Positions 16,685 to 26,369 of a stretch of DNA of 64,000 nt are shown here, in pieces. The translations under genes and the position numbers were made by a program. Location: NCBI GenBank assembly GCA_949288785.1, contig CASELQ010000012.1:1-64000 (forward strand), in the 5' to 3' direction. Source of the DNA: an uncultured Eubacteriales bacterium. Lineage in GTDB: Bacteria > Bacillota > Clostridia > Christensenellales > Borkfalkiaceae. Numbering within the stretch: the stretch's first letter is position 1; each line of letters begins with the position of its first letter. The notes beneath the pieces were generated by a model that was not told where the DNA came from, did no database searches, and worked only from the letters and a program-made list of their open reading frames with translations.

Positions 16685-17119
16685 TTAAAAAACCGTGCTA
16701 TAACGGAAGAGAAAAGAATTATATTCATTGACAGCGAAATCAGCCTGCGCAATCATAAAATCGATGATTTGGGCGCCATCAAAGAAAATGGCGACATCTT
16801 TCATCCCGCACGGCGTATTGGCTATCTGTTCGGGCGACCACGTTTTAGATAATTTTTCATCTATGTAGTCCAATACGTTTCTTTCCCAAAACATTCCCCG
16901 GTGGCGGTAACTGTTGCGCAGTTTGCTTTTCTTTTGCGCCGTATGCGGATAATATCTCGGGATATCTCTGTAAAAGGTACAATTCCGCCTCAGTTCCCGT
17001 GATATCGAACTTACGTTCCTGCCAAGTAATTTTGCAATTTCTCTTCTATAATTTTTTCCTTTTACATAGTATTCTCGTAATGAGCAGCGCTCTTCTATGG
17101 TAAAATGGTGGTAGTTCAT
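16685..17119 (-). pseudogene. IS30-family transposase fragment
   Basis: Encodes the N-terminal helix-turn-helix region of an IS30 transposase ('FTIEERCSLREYY', 'REIAKLLGRNVSSISREL', 'TWSPEQIAN', residues 5-108). It then runs into unrelated residues and stops at 144. The DDE catalytic core (about 200 more residues) is missing, so it cannot transpose. AAAGGAGATC precedes the ATG, so the stub may still be translated. Confidence 0.85.
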
Positions 17120-18750: not shown

Positions 18751-19335
18751 TTATTTATAAGTTTTTATTATGGTTTCGGCGATTTCGCGGCGGGTTACGC
18801 ACCTGTCCATTGCCTGTTTTTCTATATAGCGGTGTGCGTCCGCCTCGGTCATGTTGCAGGAATTTATAAGCGCCCATTTGGCGCGGTTTACTATCTTTAT
18901 TTCTTCCATCTTGTCGCGGATGGAGACCACCTTTTTTTCCATTCCGCGCAGCCGCTCTCTCGTGGCTTTAAGCCAATCCAGCGCCTGCGCGACGGTTATG
19001 GGCTGAACGGGTTTGCGGACGGCAAACACCCCGTAATCGCATACCTTTTCGTACACGCTCGGGTATACGTCTCCCCGCGCGAAAAGCATGACCACGGAAC
19101 TGCCGTTCAGGGTAATTTCCGTGGCAAACTTCACCCCGAAGTCATCGGGCAGGGGAGTATTTATTATTATGATGTCGTACAGCCGTTCCAGCGTTGCCCG
19201 CTGCGCTGCGTTTACGCTGCCCGCATAGTGCACGGGTTCGTAAACCTTTCCCGAAAGAAGCGCCGCTATGCTTTTGTTGAACTTTTCCGCCGCGGAAACC
19301 ACAAGAACGCTGTAAACGTGTTCTTTTAAAGGCAT
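18751..19335 (-). CDS. ANTAR-domain RNA-binding antiterminator (response-regulator-like)
   Basis: Regulator of 194 residues. The N-terminal half is a receiver-like domain ('LVVSAAEKFNKSIAALL', 'YDIIIINTPLPDDFG'). The conserved phospho-acceptor Asp position appears occupied by Asn (IINTPLP), so it may not be phosphorylated. A short coiled coil (about 115-140) leads to the ANTAR three-helix domain ('AKWALINSCNMTEADAH...RREIAETII'). ANTAR proteins bind RNA hairpins with an A1/G4 hexaloop and prevent terminator formation. Exactly such hairpins precede both glnN and the glutamate synthase operon here. I chose the ATG at 19335, as AAAGGAG is seven bases upstream and it starts just after the glnA stop. 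Last gene of the leftward nitrogen operon. Confidence 0.92.
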   Translation of the reverse strand: MPLKEHVYSVLVVSAAEKFNKSIAALLSGKVYEPVHYAGSVNAAQRATLERLYDIIIINTPLPDDFGVKFATEITLNGSSVVMLFARGDVYPSVYEKVCDYGVFAVRKPVQPITVAQALDWLKATRERLRGMEKKVVSIRDKMEEIKIVNRAKWALINSCNMTEADAHRYIEKQAMDRCVTRREIAETIIKTYK

Positions 19336-19351
19336 TGAAAACTCCTTTCGT

Positions 19352-20572
19352 TCAGCGGTCAATGTCCGTACAGTAGGCGTTTATTATCTCTTTCGGCAGG
19401 CAGTTTTTAATAAAACCGCTGGTCCGGGCTTTTATCGCCGCGTCCGCAAGGGAACGGGGAAGCATTTTGTATTTCGCGCGCGTCTCTTCGCTTGCGGTAT
19501 AAAAGTTTATGTCCGCGCTTTTGCACAGTTTTTTCTGTTTTTCCAGCCCGTCAAGCCCGGCGTATATGATGAGCGCGAAAGCAAGATAGGGGTTTGCGGC
19601 GGGGTCCGGGGAACGGAGTTCCGCGCGGCGGTATTCGCCGCGCGCCGCGGGTATTCTTATCAGCTGAGAGCGGTTTTCTTTTGACCAGGAAATATATATG
19701 GGCGCCTTGTCGCTGCCCAGCCTTTCGTAAGACTGCTTTACGGGATTTAAAAATACCGTCATGTCCTCTATATGATTCAATATGCCCGCTATTATAAAGT
19801 CCAGCACGTCGTTATCGGACTGCCGCGTTACGGAAAAATTGATGTGAAAACCGTTGCCGGGCGCGTTCTTTATGGGCTTGGGCGAAAAATCCGCCGCCAC
19901 GCCCGAACGGCTGACTATTGCCTGCACGGCGGAAGCGAAATTCATGGCGTTGTCCGCCGATTCCAGAGGGGCAGAGTAACGGAAGTCTATCTCGTTTTGC
20001 CCGGGGCCCTCTTCGTGATGCGAACTTTCGGGCGCAATGCCCATCTGTTCCAGCGTAAGGCATATCTCGCGGCGGATATTCTCGCTTTTGTCCGCAGGCG
20101 CTATGTCCATATAGCCCGCCCTGTCAAAGGGCTCCGCGGTGCGGTTGCCGTTTTCGTCTAACTTAAAGAGGTAAAACTCCATCTCTCCGCCGAAACGGAA
20201 GCGCACGCCCTTTTTTTCCGCCTGCATAACGGCGTCTTTTAAAATTTTCCTGGTATCCATGACAAAGGGCGAACCGTCCGGATAAGTTATGTCGCAGTAC
20301 ATGCGCACCACCCGCCCGTGTTCGGGCCGCCAGGGCAGCACCACCAGGGTGGATGGGTCGGGATGTAAAAAGAGGTCGGACCGTGTCTCGTCCCCGAAAC
20401 CCCTTATGGCGGAAGCGTCTATCGCTATGCCGTGTTCGAAGGCTCGCGCGATTTCGTTGTACATTATCGAGATGTTTTTCTGCCTGCCGAACACGTCGCA
20501 AAAGGCAAGGCGCACAAACTTTACGTCTTCCTCTTCTATGAACTGCATAACTTCCTGTTTGGAATAATTCAT
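19352..20572 (-). CDS. glnA: Glutamine synthetase, type I (short form)
   Basis: Type I glutamine synthetase (glutamate + NH3 + ATP to glutamine), 406 residues, shorter than the usual ~440-470. The beta-grasp N-terminus ('VKFVRLAFCDVFGRQKN'), the metal/glutamate-binding 'GGEMEFYLF', 'HHEEGPGQNEIDF', the ATP-binding 'PIKNAPGNGFHIN' and 'RIPAARGEYRRAELRSPDPAANPYLAFA' are all recognisable. The adenylylation-loop region is short, as in Gram-positive enzymes controlled by feedback. AAAGGAGC precedes the ATG. It sits between the glutamate synthase GXGXG gene and the ANTAR gene, forming a complete GS-GOGAT unit with its regulator. Confidence 0.95.
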   Translation of the reverse strand: MNYSKQEVMQFIEEEDVKFVRLAFCDVFGRQKNISIMYNEIARAFEHGIAIDASAIRGFGDETRSDLFLHPDPSTLVVLPWRPEHGRVVRMYCDITYPDGSPFVMDTRKILKDAVMQAEKKGVRFRFGGEMEFYLFKLDENGNRTAEPFDRAGYMDIAPADKSENIRREICLTLEQMGIAPESSHHEEGPGQNEIDFRYSAPLESADNAMNFASAVQAIVSRSGVAADFSPKPIKNAPGNGFHINFSVTRQSDNDVLDFIIAGILNHIEDMTVFLNPVKQSYERLGSDKAPIYISWSKENRSQLIRIPAARGEYRRAELRSPDPAANPYLAFALIIYAGLDGLEKQKKLCKSADINFYTASEETRAKYKMLPRSLADAAIKARTSGFIKNCLPKEIINAYCTDIDR

Positions 20573-20611
20573 AATTGCTCCTTTTTTTTGCCCGCCCGGA
20601 AAAGGGCGGAA

Positions 20612-21328
20612 CTAATTTGTAACGTACATCTGTTTATACGGGTTGTTGCTGTCCGGCAGCACCAGGGTGAAGGGGGAGTTTAAAATTTTTTCCGCCTTGA
20701 AACCGAACAGCGCGCAGAATTCCGCGATATACGGGAGGAAAGGTTTAAGTTTTTCTTGGTCTGCCGCGGCGGCGCGCACGTTTTCGGGGAAGATTATCCC
20801 TTTGCAGTCCGAGCGCAGCAGCATTGCGCCGCCGTGCATGCCCGTACAGGGGAAGTTGCCCACTATTTCCTTTTCCTCGCCCGTGTTCAGAACTATTATT
20901 ATGCCGCCCGCCTGATATTCGCCCAAAAAACTGCCCGTCTTTCCGCCTATTACGAGCACGGGCACCTTGTCCTTATAAGCCTTCATGTGGATGCCCGCGC
21001 GGTACCCGGCGTTGCCCTTTACGTATATGGCGCCGCCGCGCATGGCGTAGCCCGCCGCGTCCCCCACGTTGCCGTAAACCACAATCTTTCCGCCGTTCAT
21101 GGTATCCCCGAGCGCGTCCTGCGCGTTGCCGCGGATGTATATTTCCGCGCCGTTCAAGTACGCCCCCGCGGCGTTGCCCGCGGTGCCCGTTAAGGTTATC
21201 TTTTTATCGGTCATGCCCGCACCTAAAAACCGCTGACCAAGACAGCTTTCTACCGTGCAGTCTTTTACCCGCCGTATTTGTTCGTTTAATTCTTTATACC
21301 CGGCTTGCGCCGCATCTATTACAGTCAT
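20612..21328 (-). CDS. Glutamate synthase GXGXG subunit (GltB3-like)
   Basis: 238-residue protein equal to the C-terminal beta-helix of glutamate synthase large subunit, with repeated Gly motifs ('GTAGNAAGAYLNGAEIYIRG', 'GDTMNGGKIVVYGNVGDAAG', 'GGAIYVKGNAGYRAG'). In the archaeal-type, three-piece enzyme it is a separate structural subunit that holds the GATase and FMN domains together. The ATG at 21328 (GGAG eleven bases upstream) is preferred over the one at 21385, whose extra residues are not family-like. Neighbours are the FMN subunit upstream and glnA downstream. Confidence 0.9.
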   Translation of the reverse strand: MTVIDAAQAGYKELNEQIRRVKDCTVESCLGQRFLGAGMTDKKITLTGTAGNAAGAYLNGAEIYIRGNAQDALGDTMNGGKIVVYGNVGDAAGYAMRGGAIYVKGNAGYRAGIHMKAYKDKVPVLVIGGKTGSFLGEYQAGGIIIVLNTGEEKEIVGNFPCTGMHGGAMLLRSDCKGIIFPENVRAAAADQEKLKPFLPYIAEFCALFGFKAEKILNSPFTLVLPDSNNPYKQMYVTN

Positions 21329-21388
21329 TATACCATATCTCCGAATATTTTTCCATAATTTTGATAAGTTTTCAGATTTTTGCACCCG

Positions 21389-22507
21389 TTATTCTCCGGC
21401 GTGATAAACCCCCAGTATCTCCAACTCTTTTTCCGTAAGGTCTATTCCGCGCAGCATAAGGCGGTTTCCGCGCAGCGCCTCTATGGAATTTATGCCCATT
21501 CCGCCCATGAACTCCTTTATTTCGTGCCGCCATGCCGTCATAAGATTTACAAGCCGTTTTCTGCCCGTTTCGGGGTCTAACCGGCTTACGAGTTCTTTCC
21601 GCTGGGTGGCAATGCCCCAGTTGCAGTTGCCCGTCTGGCAGTTTCGGCAAAGGTGGCAGCCCATGGCGAGCAGGGCGGCGGTGGCTACGTATACGGCGTC
21701 CGCCCCCAGCGCAACGGCTTTCACCACGTCGGCGGAAGAGCGTATGCTGCCGCCCGCTATAAGCGACACGTTGTTTCTTATGCCTTCCTCTCTAAGGCGC
21801 TTATCCACCACGGCGAGCGCCAGTTCTATGGGAATGCCCACGTTATCCCTTATTCTCGTGGGCGCCGCGCCCGTGCCGCCGCGGAACCCGTCTATCGCTA
21901 TTATGTCGGCGCCGCTCCGCGCTATCCCGCTGGCTATGGCGGCAATGTTATGCACCGCCGCAACCTTTACTATTACGGGTTTTTTGTATTCCGTGGCTTC
22001 CTTTAAGGAAAATACCAGCTGCCTTAAATCTTCTATCGAGTAAATGTCGTGATGGGGCGCGGGGGAGATGGCGTCCGTCCCCTCGGGTATCATGCGGGTG
22101 CGGGAAACGTCCCCCACGATCTTGGCGCCGGGAAGGTGCCCGCCTATGCCCGGCTTTGCTCCCTGACCCATTTTTATCTCTATCGCCGCGCCCGCATTGA
22201 GGTAATTCTCGTGCACGCCGAATCTGCCGGAAGCCACCTGCACCACGGTGTTTGCTCCGTAGCGGTAAAAATCTTCGTGCAGGCCGCCTTCGCCCGTGTT
22301 ATAAAGTATGCCCAGCTCTTCCGCCGCCGAGGCAAGGCACTTGTGCGCGTTGTAACTTATGGAGCCGTAACTCATTGCCGAGAACATGACCGGCATGGAG
22401 AGCTCAAGCTGCGGGGGCAGGTTGTTTATTAGTTTGCCGTTCTTATCCCGCTCTATGCCCGCCGGCTTTTTGCCCAGGAACACGCGGGTCTCCATGGGTT
22501 CTCCCAA
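21389..22507 (-). CDS. Glutamate synthase FMN domain (GltB2-like), C-terminal fragment
   Basis: FMN-binding barrel of glutamate synthase, which makes glutamate from 2-oxoglutarate using ammonia tunnelled from the GATase. 'MSYGSISYNAHKCLA', 'YNTGEGGLHEDFYRYG', 'KMGQGAKPGIGGHLPG', 'DGFRGGTGAAP' and the [3Fe-4S] Cys cluster 'CHLCRNCQTGNC' are intact. The frame begins abruptly at 'EPMETRVFLGKKP', which in homologues is internal. The ~19 residues that normally precede it ('...NASQVTNPSIDPLR' type) are absent and the ferredoxin part lies in another frame. The TTG at 22507 is not a convincing start. See the entry at 22453. Confidence 0.85.
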   Translation of the reverse strand: MGEPMETRVFLGKKPAGIERDKNGKLINNLPPQLELSMPVMFSAMSYGSISYNAHKCLASAAEELGILYNTGEGGLHEDFYRYGANTVVQVASGRFGVHENYLNAGAAIEIKMGQGAKPGIGGHLPGAKIVGDVSRTRMIPEGTDAISPAPHHDIYSIEDLRQLVFSLKEATEYKKPVIVKVAAVHNIAAIASGIARSGADIIAIDGFRGGTGAAPTRIRDNVGIPIELALAVVDKRLREEGIRNNVSLIAGGSIRSSADVVKAVALGADAVYVATAALLAMGCHLCRNCQTGNCNWGIATQRKELVSRLDPETGRKRLVNLMTAWRHEIKEFMGGMGINSIEALRGNRLMLRGIDLTEKELEILGVYHAGE

Positions 22508-22839
22508 TACACGGGCAGTTTGCCCGCCGCGCCCATGGAAGAAAGCAGCACGCCTCCGCTGCCCGCCTGTTTGAAAATTTCCTTTACGGTGTCGTTGTGC
22601 CAGTTGGCGTTCTCGCGGAAAGTGTTGGGGTTTTTCACAATTTTAAGCGCCTTTTCCGGGCAGAAACACACGCACCGCTGGCAGTTCACGCATTTGGTTT
22701 CGTCCGAAAGCACGATTTTTCTTTTTTCGTCAAAGTAATGCACGCCGTTTGCGCACTGACTTATGCAGGCGCGGCAGTTGGTGCAGCGCCGTTCGTTTCT
22801 TTGCACTTCGAATTCGGGATATATATATTCCGCGCTCAT
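22453..22839 (-). CDS. Glutamate synthase ferredoxin domain (GltB2-like), N-terminal fragment
   Basis: N-terminal part of the same GltB2-like subunit. It has two [4Fe-4S] motifs ('CTNCRACISQCANG', 'CVNCQRCVCFCPEKA') and the linker 'FRENANWHNDTVKEIFKQAGSG', ending at 'LPVYW' before the frame breaks. The last ~20 residues of this frame are read out of frame over the FMN part. The ATG overlaps the GATase stop (ATGA), so translation is coupled. If the break is real the enzyme is inactive. If it is an assembly error, the product is a normal ~500-residue ferredoxin-linked subunit. No gltD is present, which suits ferredoxin as donor. Confidence 0.85.
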   Translation of the reverse strand: MSAEYIYPEFEVQRNERRCTNCRACISQCANGVHYFDEKRKIVLSDETKCVNCQRCVCFCPEKALKIVKNPNTFRENANWHNDTVKEIFKQAGSGGVLLSSMGAAGKLPVYWENPWRPACSWAKSRRA

Positions 22840-23930
22840 ACTGTAATACCTTCCTTTACTTTTACTATTACGGGTCTGCCGCCCGCGGGGCTGTAAATGC
22901 CGTCGAGATCGGGCTCCATGGTTCGTATTGCCGCCTCTTCGCTGGCTATGTATACTCTGTCGCCCTTTTCTCCCACCACCATGGAGCGGAGTTTAAGCCT
23001 GTCTCCGAGCGCCATAAGCCCGCCCGTAAAGCCCAGCACTATGGAAAAGGGCCCCGTTATCAAAAGACTTGAAAACATGTTGCGAAGGTATGAAAGGGCG
23101 GCTTTTTCTTCAGGGCTTTTTCTCGATATGGTGTCCCAGAAGGGTGCGGCTATTACCGAAGCCGTCTCTTCAAGCGTAAGCTTTTGGCGGCGGAGCAGGT
23201 AGTCGGCTATATAGGTTATAACCTCGGTATCGGTTTGCAGGGTGCATTTATACCCGAACATCTCTATAAAACGGCGGTTGGCGTCGTAAGAAGATATTTC
23301 GCCGTTGTGCACTACCGAATAATCGAGCAGGGCAAAGGGGTGCGCGCCGCCCCACCAGCCGGGGGTGTTGGTGGGATAACGCCCGTGCGCCGTCCAGCAG
23401 TAGGCGCCGTATTCTTCCAGGCGGTAAAACCTGCCCACGTCCTCGGGATAGCCCACCGCCTTGAACGCGCCCATGTTTTTCCCGCAGGAAAAGACGTATG
23501 CGCCGCTTATCCCGGAGTTTATCTTCATGGCGGTGCGCACCACAAATTCCTTTTCGTCTAATTGCAGAGAGGCAAGCACCGAGGGAAGAGGGGAAAGAAA
23601 GTACCGCCAGATAAGGGGCTCGTCGGTTATTTCGGGGATCTTTCCGGTGGGGATTATTTCGGCTTTCACCATCTCGAACCCTTCTTTTAAAAACCGTTCG
23701 GTCTCCGCGCGCACGGCGTTATCGTTAAAAAATATATGAAAGGCATACTGTTCGCGGTGCTCCGGGTAAATGCCGTAAGCCGCAAAACCGCCGCCCAGCC
23801 CGTTCGCCCTGTCGTGCATGGGGATCATGCTCTTTATTATGCTTTCTCCGCTCATCCGTTCTCCGCTTCTGGATATTACGGCGGAAATGGCGCAGCCGGA
23901 GGGTATCCTTACCTGACCTTCTTTTTTCAT
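22836..23930 (-). CDS. Glutamate synthase glutaminase subunit (class II GATase, GltB1-like)
   Basis: 364-residue class II glutamine amidotransferase that releases ammonia from glutamine for the GltB2 barrel. The catalytic Cys is the one in 'PSGCAISAV' (about residue 13), exposed after removal of a short propeptide as in related free-standing proteins. 'NGLGGGFAAYGIYP', 'AHGRYPTNTPGWWGGAHPF' and 'VVHNGEISSYDANRRF' mark the glutamine site. First gene of the leftward operon, 20 nt after the leader terminator, with GAGG before the ATG. Its leader holds an ANTAR-type hairpin, so it should be induced when the ANTAR protein is active. Confidence 0.92.
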   Translation of the reverse strand: MKKEGQVRIPSGCAISAVISRSGERMSGESIIKSMIPMHDRANGLGGGFAAYGIYPEHREQYAFHIFFNDNAVRAETERFLKEGFEMVKAEIIPTGKIPEITDEPLIWRYFLSPLPSVLASLQLDEKEFVVRTAMKINSGISGAYVFSCGKNMGAFKAVGYPEDVGRFYRLEEYGAYCWTAHGRYPTNTPGWWGGAHPFALLDYSVVHNGEISSYDANRRFIEMFGYKCTLQTDTEVITYIADYLLRRQKLTLEETASVIAAPFWDTISRKSPEEKAALSYLRNMFSSLLITGPFSIVLGFTGGLMALGDRLKLRSMVVGEKGDRVYIASEEAAIRTMEPDLDGIYSPAGGRPVIVKVKEGITV

Positions 23931-23946
23931 AATTACCTCGCAAATT

Positions 23947-23992
23947 AAAAAAGGCGTTCACCGCACAGTTTTCCTGCACAATGAACGCCTTT
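23947..23992 (-). terminator. Leader intrinsic terminator (attenuator) of the glutamate synthase operon
   Basis: On the minus strand AAAGGCGTTCA pairs with TGAACGCCTTT, with an inner six-pair extension and a GAAAA loop, followed by a T6 tract. It lies inside the 5' leader, between promoter and first gene, so it acts as an attenuator. Its left arm is shared with the ANTAR-type hairpin at 23980-23999, which makes the two folds mutually exclusive. Confidence 0.85.
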
Positions 23993-23999
23993 GCTCATT
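23980..23999 (-). promoter_or_regulatory. ANTAR-type RNA hairpin (A1/G4 hexaloop)
   Basis: Minus-strand RNA: AAUGAGC, loop AAAGGC, GUUCAUU, a 7-bp stem with one G-U pair. The six-base loop has A at position 1 and G at position 4, the defining ANTAR recognition feature. It starts about three bases after the predicted transcription start and overlaps the terminator's left arm. I see no room for a first hairpin upstream, whereas published elements have two. Confidence 0.75.
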
Positions 24000-24008
24000 A
24001 CAACAGTG

Positions 24009-24037
24009 ATTTTACACTTTTGAACGGCATTTGTCAA
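24009..24037 (-). promoter_or_regulatory. Sigma-A promoter of the glutamate synthase-glnA-ANTAR operon
   Basis: Minus strand TTGACA, 17-bp spacer, TAAAAT. Predicted start near 24002, giving a leader of about 70 nt. Confidence 0.85.
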
Positions 24038-24088
24038 CAGTTGAAAAATCATTTTTAAATTTTTTTTGATTTTTTTGCAAAAAAACCG

Positions 24089-24117
24089 TTGACAAGCGCA
24101 AATCAAAGTATTATAAT
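24089..24117 (+). promoter_or_regulatory. Consensus sigma-A promoter of glnN
   Basis: TTGACA, 17-bp spacer, TATAAT: a perfect consensus. Predicted start near 24124, giving a ~150-nt leader. Such a strong promoter combined with terminators downstream is typical of control by attenuation. Confidence 0.9.
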
Positions 24118-24131
24118 GAGGGGCGTAATGA

Positions 24132-24149
24132 AAAGGCAACGGCGTCTTT
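24132..24149 (+). promoter_or_regulatory. ANTAR-type RNA hairpin, copy 1, glnN leader
   Basis: AAAGGC, loop AACGGC, GUCUUU: a 6-bp stem with the A1/G4 hexaloop. Its 3' half is also the left arm of the terminator at 24141. It begins about eight bases after the predicted start. Confidence 0.75.
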
Positions 24150-24180
24150 GAATAAGTGTTCAAAGGCGCCTTTTTCTTTT
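24141..24180 (+). terminator. Leader terminator 1 of glnN
   Basis: GGCGUCUUUGAA pairs fully with UUCAAAGGCGCC (one G-U), loop UAAGUG, then UUUUUCUUUU. It is mutually exclusive with ANTAR hairpin copy 1. Confidence 0.88.
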
Positions 24181-24212
24181 GTGAAAGGCTGTATATAATA
24201 AGTTTAAGGTTA

Positions 24213-24230
24213 AAAGGCAACGGCGTCTTT
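24213..24230 (+). promoter_or_regulatory. ANTAR-type RNA hairpin, copy 2, glnN leader
   Basis: Exact second copy of the hairpin (AAAGGC-AACGGC-GUCUUU), 81 bases downstream as part of a 19-bp direct repeat (24131-24149 and 24212-24230). It overlaps the left arm of the second terminator. Confidence 0.75.
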
Positions 24231-24255
24231 ACGGGGCGGCGTTGTCTTATTTTTT
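24214..24255 (+). terminator. Leader terminator 2 of glnN
   Basis: AAGGCAACG pairs with CGUUGUCUU. After a G-G mismatch, CGUCU/GGGCG extends the stem around a UUACG loop, and AUUUUUU follows. It ends just before the glnN ribosome site (AAAAGGAG), so it could also mask translation. Confidence 0.75.
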
Positions 24256-24272
24256 ATAAAAGGAGATGTATT

Positions 24273-26369
24273 ATGAAATCGGTAACGGAAGAATTCGGCA
24301 GTCTTGTGTTTGACGACAGGGTAATGCGGGCAACCTTGTCCGCGGAGGTCTACAATTCTTTGAAAAAGACCATCGATGAGGGGGCAAGCCTGGATATTTC
24401 GGTGGCAAACGCCGTGGCTTCCGCCATGAAGGACTGGGCGGTGGAAAAGGGCGCCACTCACTTTACTCACTGGTTCCAGCCCCTTACCGGCATAACCGCC
24501 GAAAAGCACGACAGTTTTATCACTCCCGCGCCGGACGGCAGGGTGATAATGGAGTTTTCCGGCAAGGAACTCATAAAGGGCGAGCCGGACGCTTCCAGTT
24601 TTCCTTCCGGCGGGATAAGGGCCACGTTCGAGGCGCGCGGGTATACCGCATGGGATCCCACTTCCTACGCCTTTATCAAGGGCAAGACCCTCTGTATACC
24701 CACGGCGTTCTGCTCTTACGGGGGAGAGGCGCTGGATAAAAAGACCCCGCTCCTCCGCTCCATGGAAGCATTGAACAGGCAGGCTTTGAGGATATTGAAA
24801 CTGTTCGGCAATACCGACGTAAAGTGCGTAAGGACTTCGGTGGGGCCCGAACAGGAATATTTTCTGGTGGACAGGGAGATGTTTGAAAAGAGGAGAGACC
24901 TTGTGTTCACCGGCAGAACGCTGTTCGGAGCAAAACCGCCCAAGGGTCAGGAGATGGAAGACCACTATTTCGGCGTAATAAAACCGCGGGTAGCCGCCTA
25001 TATGGAAGAACTGAACGAAGAGCTGTGGAAACTGGGCGTGCTTGCCAAGACCGAGCATAACGAAGTGGCGCCCGCTCAGCACGAACTTGCGCCCATATAC
25101 ACCACTACCAACATAGCCACGGACCACAACCAGCTCACCATGGAGATAATGCAGAAGGTGGCTTTAAAGCACGGGCTGGTGTGCCTGCTGCACGAAAAAC
25201 CGTTTGCGGGCGTGAACGGCAGCGGAAAACACAACAACTGGTCCATTTCCACCAACACCGGGGTCAACCTGCTTTCGCCCGGGGAAACGCCGTACGAGAA
25301 CGCGCAGTTTTTGCTGTTTTTGTGCGCCGTTATAAAGGCGGTGGACGACTATCAGGATCTTTTGCGCCTGGCGGTGGCGACCGCCGGCAACGACCACAGG
25401 CTGGGCGCCAACGAGGCCCCGCCCGCGGTGGTGTCGATATTTTTGGGCGACGAACTTACCGCCATTTTAGAGGCGATAGAGAGCGGCAAACCCTATGCCG
25501 GCAGGAAAAAGACGGCGCTTAAACTGGGGGTGGACGTGCTGCCCGTATTCCCGAGGGACACTACGGACAGGAACCGCACTTCTCCGTTTGCCTTCACGGG
25601 CAACAAATTCGAATTCCGTATGCTGGGCTCATCCAACAGCATTGCCTGCGCCAACATAATGTTAAACAGCGCGGTGGCGGAGTCCTTACGCATATATGCC
25701 GACAGGCTGGAAGGCGCCGAGGACTTTGAAAAGGCGCTCAACGACATGATAAGAAAGACCATAAAGGACCACAAGCGTATCCTTTTCAACGGCAACGGGT
25801 ACGACGACGCCTGGATAAAAGAGGCCACCGAGGTGAGGGGACTGTTAAATTACAGGACCACGCCCGACTGCATGCCTCACCTTCTCGACAAAAAGAACGT
25901 GGAAATGCTCACGCTGCACAAAGTGTATTCGGAGACCGAACTTAAGGCGCGTACCGAAATTATGCTGGATAACTACTGCAAAACGGTGGTCATAGAAGCC
26001 AACACCATGGCGGACATGGCAAGGAGGGATATCCTTCCCGCGGTGGAAAGTTACATAAGGGATCTTTCGGAAACGGCTTCGGCAAAGGTGCGGTTTGCGC
26101 CCGATTCCCCGTGCGGGTTCGAAAGAAAGACGGTATCCGGGCTTTCGCTGCTTGCGGAACAGATACTTGCCTGCACCGAGGCGCTTGAAGAGGCGGTGGT
26201 AAAGCTCAAATTCGCGCCGGACGCGGAGCAGGAGAGTTGTATGATAAGGGACAACGTGCTGCCTAAGATGAGCGCGCTCAGAGCCGCGGCGGACGAGGCG
26301 GAAACGCTTACCGCCGGAAAATACTGGCCATTCCCGACTTACGGAGATCTGCTGTTCGGGGTTAAATAA
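24273..26369 (+). CDS. glnN: Glutamine synthetase type III
   Basis: Type III glutamine synthetase, a dodecameric enzyme of ~700 residues common in anaerobes. This one has 698 residues from the ATG at 24273. Recognised features: '[21 protein letters not shown]' region split over the family-specific N-terminus, '[12 protein letters not shown]' (metal and glutamate site), '[18 protein letters not shown]', '[14 protein letters not shown]' (ATP/glutamate site) and '[19 protein letters not shown]'. The ATG is supported by AAAAGGAG ten bases upstream; an upstream in-frame extension would run through the leader hairpins and is not plausible. First gene of glnN-asnB-pyrG-dapF-dapL, under tandem ANTAR attenuators. 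Confidence 0.96.

Follow-up and report, generated by a model that had tools for sequence, protein, structure and literature searches.

Tandem single-hexaloop attenuators in the glnN leader of an uncultured clostridial bacterium and their probable control by a NitR-like ANTAR protein

The window, that is, the whole stretch of 64,000 nucleotides of an uncultured Eubacteriales bacterium that was analysed, contains a nitrogen-assimilation cluster at 18751–26369. The cluster consists of glnN, which encodes a type III glutamine synthetase (GSIII), and a divergent set of genes on the opposite strand, with regulatory features on both sides of the divergent promoters:

18751–19362, minus strand: gene of a NitR-like ANTAR protein with a degenerate receiver and an ANTAR domain (Pfam, residue analysis)
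19352–20572, minus strand: glnA, glutamine synthetase I (Pfam)
22836–23930, minus strand: first gene of the divergent operon, a glutamine amidotransferase-type glutamate synthase subunit (GATase_2; Pfam)
23950–23992, minus strand: intrinsic terminator of the divergent operon, using the 3' half of that operon's hexaloop hairpin (folding)
23977–24002, minus strand: hexaloop hairpin of the divergent operon, AUGAGC-AAAGGC-GUUCAU, with A1/G4 (kept in relatives)
24009–24037, minus strand: promoter of the divergent glutamate synthase operon (11/12 match)
24089–24117, plus strand: sigma-A promoter of glnN, TTGACA-17-TATAAT (12/12 consensus match; similar promoter-to-hairpin spacing in relatives)
24132–24149, plus strand: hexaloop hairpin 1, AAAGGC-AACGGC-GUCUUU, with A1/G4, antiterminator of unit 1 (folding, covariation)
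24141–24170, plus strand: intrinsic terminator 1 with a 12–13 bp stem and a U tract at 24171–24179 (folding, covariation)
24194–24199, plus strand: TATAAT in the linker, 13 nt upstream of hairpin 2, with a poor -35 (TTTTCT), 9/12 (sequence)
24213–24230, plus strand: hexaloop hairpin 2, same sequence as hairpin 1, antiterminator of unit 2 (repeat, folding)
24214–24248, plus strand: intrinsic terminator 2 of 15 bp with one internal mismatch and a U tract at 24249–24255 (folding)
24273–26369, plus strand: glnN, type III glutamine synthetase (GSIII_N, Gln-synt_C; Pfam)

The minus-strand operon appears to run from the gene at 22836–23930 via glnA to the ANTAR gene, and this gene order suggests that the ANTAR gene is probably located downstream of a switch under its own control. 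The protein encoded there is the sole ANTAR protein of the genome (1.73 Mb). The divergent leader has the same design as the units in front of glnN, built on a different stem. Strong matches to the GATase_2 gene are confined to ANTAR-positive members among the genus genomes. Another glutamate synthase gene of the cluster, at 21389–22839 on the minus strand, lies in two frames, with approximately 16 codons missing and a frame change near 22500 as judged against intact relatives of about 500 amino acids; this split could reflect either genuine gene damage or faulty assembly. Outside the cluster, an open reading frame at 16685–17119 on the minus strand has an IS30-type transposase-like start and appears by eye to be truncated.

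The glnN leader is built around a 19-bp direct repeat (AAAAGGCAACGGCGTCTTT) whose copies at 24131–24149 and 24212–24230 are identical without a mismatch, exactly where the sequence-only reading had placed them. The chance expectation of an exact 19-mer repeat within 300 nt is near 1.6e-7. Each copy yields an A1/G4 hexaloop on a stem of 4–6 bp with a C-G closing pair; this hairpin alone is worth about -4.6 kcal/mol, and the 139-nt leader folds with a z score of -5.1 against shuffles. The perfect sigma-A promoter at 24089–24117 places the start of unit 1 approximately 7–8 nt past the predicted start site. The 5' strand of terminator 1 is formed by the 3' half of the loop and the 3' arm of hairpin 1, and terminator 2 swallows hairpin 2 entirely, including its 5' arm and loop. 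The earlier proposal that each copy is an A1/G4 hairpin tied to its own terminator is thus borne out, through the 3' half in unit 1 and through the whole hairpin in unit 2. These window terminators were read directly; a scripted typing of terminators as '3'-half' or '5'-arm' was dropped because the U tails pair with A-rich arms.

Folding of the growing transcript gave the closing pair of hexaloop 1 a probability of about 0.99 until the 3' arm of the terminator emerged and 0 thereafter, and unit 2 followed the same course. When hairpin 1 was held in a constrained fold, terminator 1 was gone, and when both hairpins were held, both terminators were gone. Taken together, the constrained and growing-transcript folds indicate that termination is the default and that the hairpin needs something to hold it. 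The mutual exclusivity of hairpin and terminator is seen in folding and also in the covariation of both structures, as follows.

We collected 100 units, 90 of them distinct, with a scanner that required at least 4 stem pairs. The distinct units have a C-G closing pair and an AANGGN loop, and loop position 2, which was not selected for, is A in 89 of the 90. The scanner threshold itself accounts for part of the pairing at the inner four positions; stem pair 5, on which the scanner set no condition, is paired in 81% of units vs 58% after shuffling. In 30 units, 92.8% of the cells of the hairpin alignment are paired, with a covariation score of 0.479 (0.192 shuffled) and 23 two-sided changes, 5.1 being expected from shuffles. 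For the competing terminator in 30 units, the corresponding values are 94.2%, 0.569 (0.220 shuffled) and 49 two-sided changes (11.4 expected). Slid controls fell far below the true alignment for hairpin and terminator alike. Compensatory change in related genomes was one of the points on which the sequence-only reading had staked its claim, and it is present in both of the competing structures. Most units have G-U at stem pair 2, a sign of an RNA element rather than a DNA site or palindrome. Within the genus, orthologous glnN leaders (L004–L009 and L011–L013) carry one unit each, always with an A1/G4 loop, on compensated stems such as AAAAGGC/GUCUUUU, UUUUGGC/GUCAAGG and CAGC/GCUG. For G020, the closest member of the genus, the contig stops 26 nt before the start codon, so its leader lies outside this sample, and the divergent gene is absent from the other contigs of that genome.

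The 50 unit-bearing GSIII leaders comprise 35 with one unit, 14 with two and 1 with three, and the loops of tandem units are 58–179 nt apart. A strict terminator test was passed by two units in 9 of the 15 multi-unit leaders, and one unit failed it in the other 6. Tandem glnN leaders occur in several clades, including the named isolates Merdimmobilis hominis and Claveliimonas monacensis, and usually have one promoter. In L198, the GSIII gene is preceded by three successive hexaloop hairpins, of which the last has no clear terminator and is treated here as tentative. The linker of the window leader contains a TATAAT at 24194–24199, a possible weak second promoter judging from its sequence, and if it were used, the leader would hold two promoters with one attenuator each, and the transcript from the second would meet only unit 2. 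The placement speaks for this arrangement, since a perfect -10 lies 13 nt before hairpin 2 and the main -10 lies 14 nt before hairpin 1. However, the -35 is poor, and in other tandem leaders most first units have a near-consensus promoter whereas second units are usually without a promoter-like site. We therefore regard a two-promoter arrangement as improbable and favor two units read in succession from the promoter at 24089–24117.

We then considered how many hexaloops serve each terminator. A second A1/G4 hairpin upstream (P1, with a linker of 2–15 nt) was found for 3 of 97 units, and 1.8 would be expected by chance. Where a promoter was recognised in a GSIII leader, the -10 of the first unit mostly ends 7–18 nt before the stem, so that the first hairpin begins within about the first ten transcribed bases (about 1–10 nt). 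The dual-hexaloop motif of the EutV/NasR/AmiR type is accordingly absent, there being little or no transcribed space 5' of the first hairpin. By sequence, each terminator in this lineage is as a rule accompanied by a single hexaloop, in single and tandem units alike. The initial reading had seen a departure from the dual-hairpin rule in the glnN leader; the departure is real there, but it is not peculiar to this leader and extends lineage-wide over approximately 100 units. In vivo, EutV depends on two hairpins joined by a short linker (PMC3369931), and the affinity of NasR for one hairpin is approximately 12-fold below that for the pair (PMC7496416). Given these precedents, that one hexaloop suffices here is something we infer. 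According to Walshe et al., the protein-bound unit is one hexaloop, and single sites are expected mainly where the timing of the polymerase is not limiting (PMC8934654). The single hexaloops described here seem to oppose terminators while transcription is under way.

A different use of the repeat would be one distant dual-hexaloop motif, in which hairpin 1 recruits the protein (as P1), hairpin 2 antiterminates (as P2) and terminator 1 happens to lie between them. Identical hexaloops do occur twice in one transcript, and a hand-over from a recruitment hairpin to an antitermination hairpin has been proposed by Walshe et al. (PMC8934654). This arrangement is nevertheless quite unlikely, because most unit-bearing leaders (35/50) have a single unit, hexaloops generally overlap their own terminators, and loops 58–179 nt apart contrast with EutV, which fails with a linker of 14 nt or one lengthened by 20 nt (PMC3369931, PMC8934654). 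Two self-contained units remain the reading that we prefer.

The link to ANTAR proteins was examined in a genus sample of 44 genomes, 15 with and 29 without an ANTAR gene, by running a covariance model built from the unit. The model matched 11 of the 15 ANTAR-positive genomes and gave no match in the 29 that lack the gene (p 1.8e-7). Its matches in the window genome are confined to the glnN and glutamate synthase leaders, and the second GSIII gene of this genome has no unit in its leader. Of 50 further genomes, 43 have an ANTAR gene, and 32 of these carry a unit before a GSIII gene, as against 0 of the 7 ANTAR-negative genomes (p 3e-4); in the 11 remaining ANTAR-positive genomes, no unit was found before the GSIII gene examined. 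Fifteen leaders of GSIII copies from ANTAR-negative genus members had zero units. The window genome thus encodes an ANTAR protein, and ANTAR genes are associated with the sites. The identity of the loop points the same way: A1/G4 accounts for 33 of 49 leader-proximal, terminator-overlapping hexaloops in 862 kb around ANTAR genes, where any other combination occurs at most 5 times, and for 51 of 71 in 81 GSIII leaders, where G1/G4 comes next at 12.

These results bear on whether the hairpins are ordinary terminators or riboswitch parts unrelated to ANTAR proteins. The Rfam search could be taken in that sense, as no family reached the gathering score in the leader, the ANTAR element was not among the matches and the low-threshold matches were chance-like. 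Against it, A1/G4 loops are selected, the units are restricted to ANTAR-positive genomes and the switch recurs at nitrogen genes linked to the ANTAR gene, leaving an unrelated function very unlikely. A recent neutral duplication of a leader segment is the least credible of all, for although the copies are identical over 19 nt and genus members with readable leaders are single-unit except G038 (two units 151 nt apart), L176 and L147, from a sister lineage in a different genus (the window is sister to L176 on the GSIII tree, support 99), have orthologous tandem units with differing loops (AACGGC/AATGGC) and a matching terminator 2 sequence, and tandem units recur in other clades, requiring at least four changes on well supported branches of the GSIII tree.

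Covariation, A1/G4 selection, tracking with ANTAR genes and tandem recurrence together support the original proposal of two successive ANTAR attenuators before one gene. From sequence and comparison, the glnN leader very probably comprises two successive attenuators under the genome's single NitR-like ANTAR protein, which would bind the hexaloops.

To characterize this protein, we numbered its residues by alignment to EutV (6WSH). It retains K143, K147 (as Arg), K149, E160 and M172, but the phospho-acceptor Asp54 is replaced by Asn, Arg142 by Ile and Tyr164 by His. Lacking both Asp54 and Tyr164, it does not qualify as an EutV-type response regulator; with receiver-like and ANTAR domains and glnA as its neighbour, it is NitR-like. 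The NitR gene is likewise linked to glnA. His occupies position 164 in all 53 gln-linked clostridial ANTAR proteins aligned, and position 54 is Asn in 33 of the 53 and Asp in only 3. The ANTAR gene adjoins glnA in the window, as it does in most of the two-ANTAR genomes for which gene neighbourhoods were examined, and the second ANTARs of two-ANTAR genomes (recovered genes) are also of the His type and mostly lie beside glnA. One genome, G301 (L308, L309), has two glnA-ANTAR gene pairs with nearly identical ANTAR domains. Because the receiver is degenerate and the gene adjoins glnA, the signal may reach the protein through contact with another protein and not through phosphorylation. In EutV, Tyr164 stacks on G4 of the loop (PMC3369931, PMC8934654), and we hypothesize that the change of Tyr164 to His is tied to the use of a single hexaloop.

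The following mechanism is proposed. As RNA polymerase leaves the promoter, the A1/G4 hexaloop hairpin is predicted to form first. With the ANTAR protein inactive, the hairpin would be displaced by the downstream arm and the intrinsic terminator would stop transcription. An active protein, the state presumed under nitrogen limitation by analogy with NitR, would instead hold the single hexaloop and block the terminator. Unit 2, approximately 80 nt further on, would repeat the test, so that antitermination should have to occur twice before a full-length glnN mRNA is made, and the logic of the leader would be multiplicative. An AND gate or an increased dynamic range, the roles put forward in the sequence-only reading, would be candidate functions of the doubling. 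The most likely benefit of two units would be a lower leak and a steeper and wider response. The switch of the divergent operon, located upstream of glnA and the ANTAR gene, would likely provide positive feedback.

The best reading of the cluster is NitR-type antitermination of nitrogen-assimilation genes through single-hexaloop switches, doubled at glnN. Across many gut Clostridia, one or two such switches precede this gene. More broadly, and with less assurance, we think it likely that a large clostridial ANTAR branch, in which His takes the G4-stacking position and the receiver is dead, uses one hexaloop at the 5' end without a recruitment hairpin and stacks it two, perhaps three, deep at glnN to multiply stringency. 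The novelty would lie in this class of minimal single-hexaloop switches at the start of the message, stacked at glnN in many lineages, more than in the repeat itself. The authors of the structural work asked why two hairpins are used if the protein grips one (PMC8934654). Approximately 100 natural sites where a lone hexaloop has to contend with a terminator as the RNA is being transcribed make this question directly testable, and the Tyr-to-His substitution is a candidate for the accompanying protein change. The published ANTAR RNA searches consulted demanded two stem-loops and would miss regulons of this type. In addition, a central nitrogen gene preceded by stacked attenuators under protein control offers a natural case of multiplicative gene control.

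Among the known systems, the closest is NitR of Clostridium saccharobutylicum, for which ANTAR-family antitermination is described as inducing GS/GOGAT genes on nitrogen limitation (Stutz et al. 2007, as cited in PMC6316151); to this comparison the window adds tandem units before glnN. The units share with EutV of Enterococcus faecalis the A1/G4 hexaloop, the conserved closing pairs and a hairpin that excludes an intrinsic terminator (PMC3369931, PMC8934654), as well as the presence of several attenuators in one gene cluster. They differ in that EutV requires two hexaloops 5–12 nt apart per terminator whereas one is used here, and in that EutV combines a phospho-accepting Asp54 with Tyr164 on G4, whereas the proteins described here usually have no Asp and have His at 164. 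In NasR/nasF and AmiR/amiE, too, an ANTAR protein controls nitrogen genes through attenuation in the leader, but with the two-hairpin motif and with sensing by other domains. The ANTAR regulon of Desulfotomaculum acetoxidans, as outlined in PMC3369931 with 13 sites in six transcription units, resembles the present one in having several attenuators per transcription unit and in including nitrogen genes; in that account, in contrast, the sites came from a dual-hairpin model.
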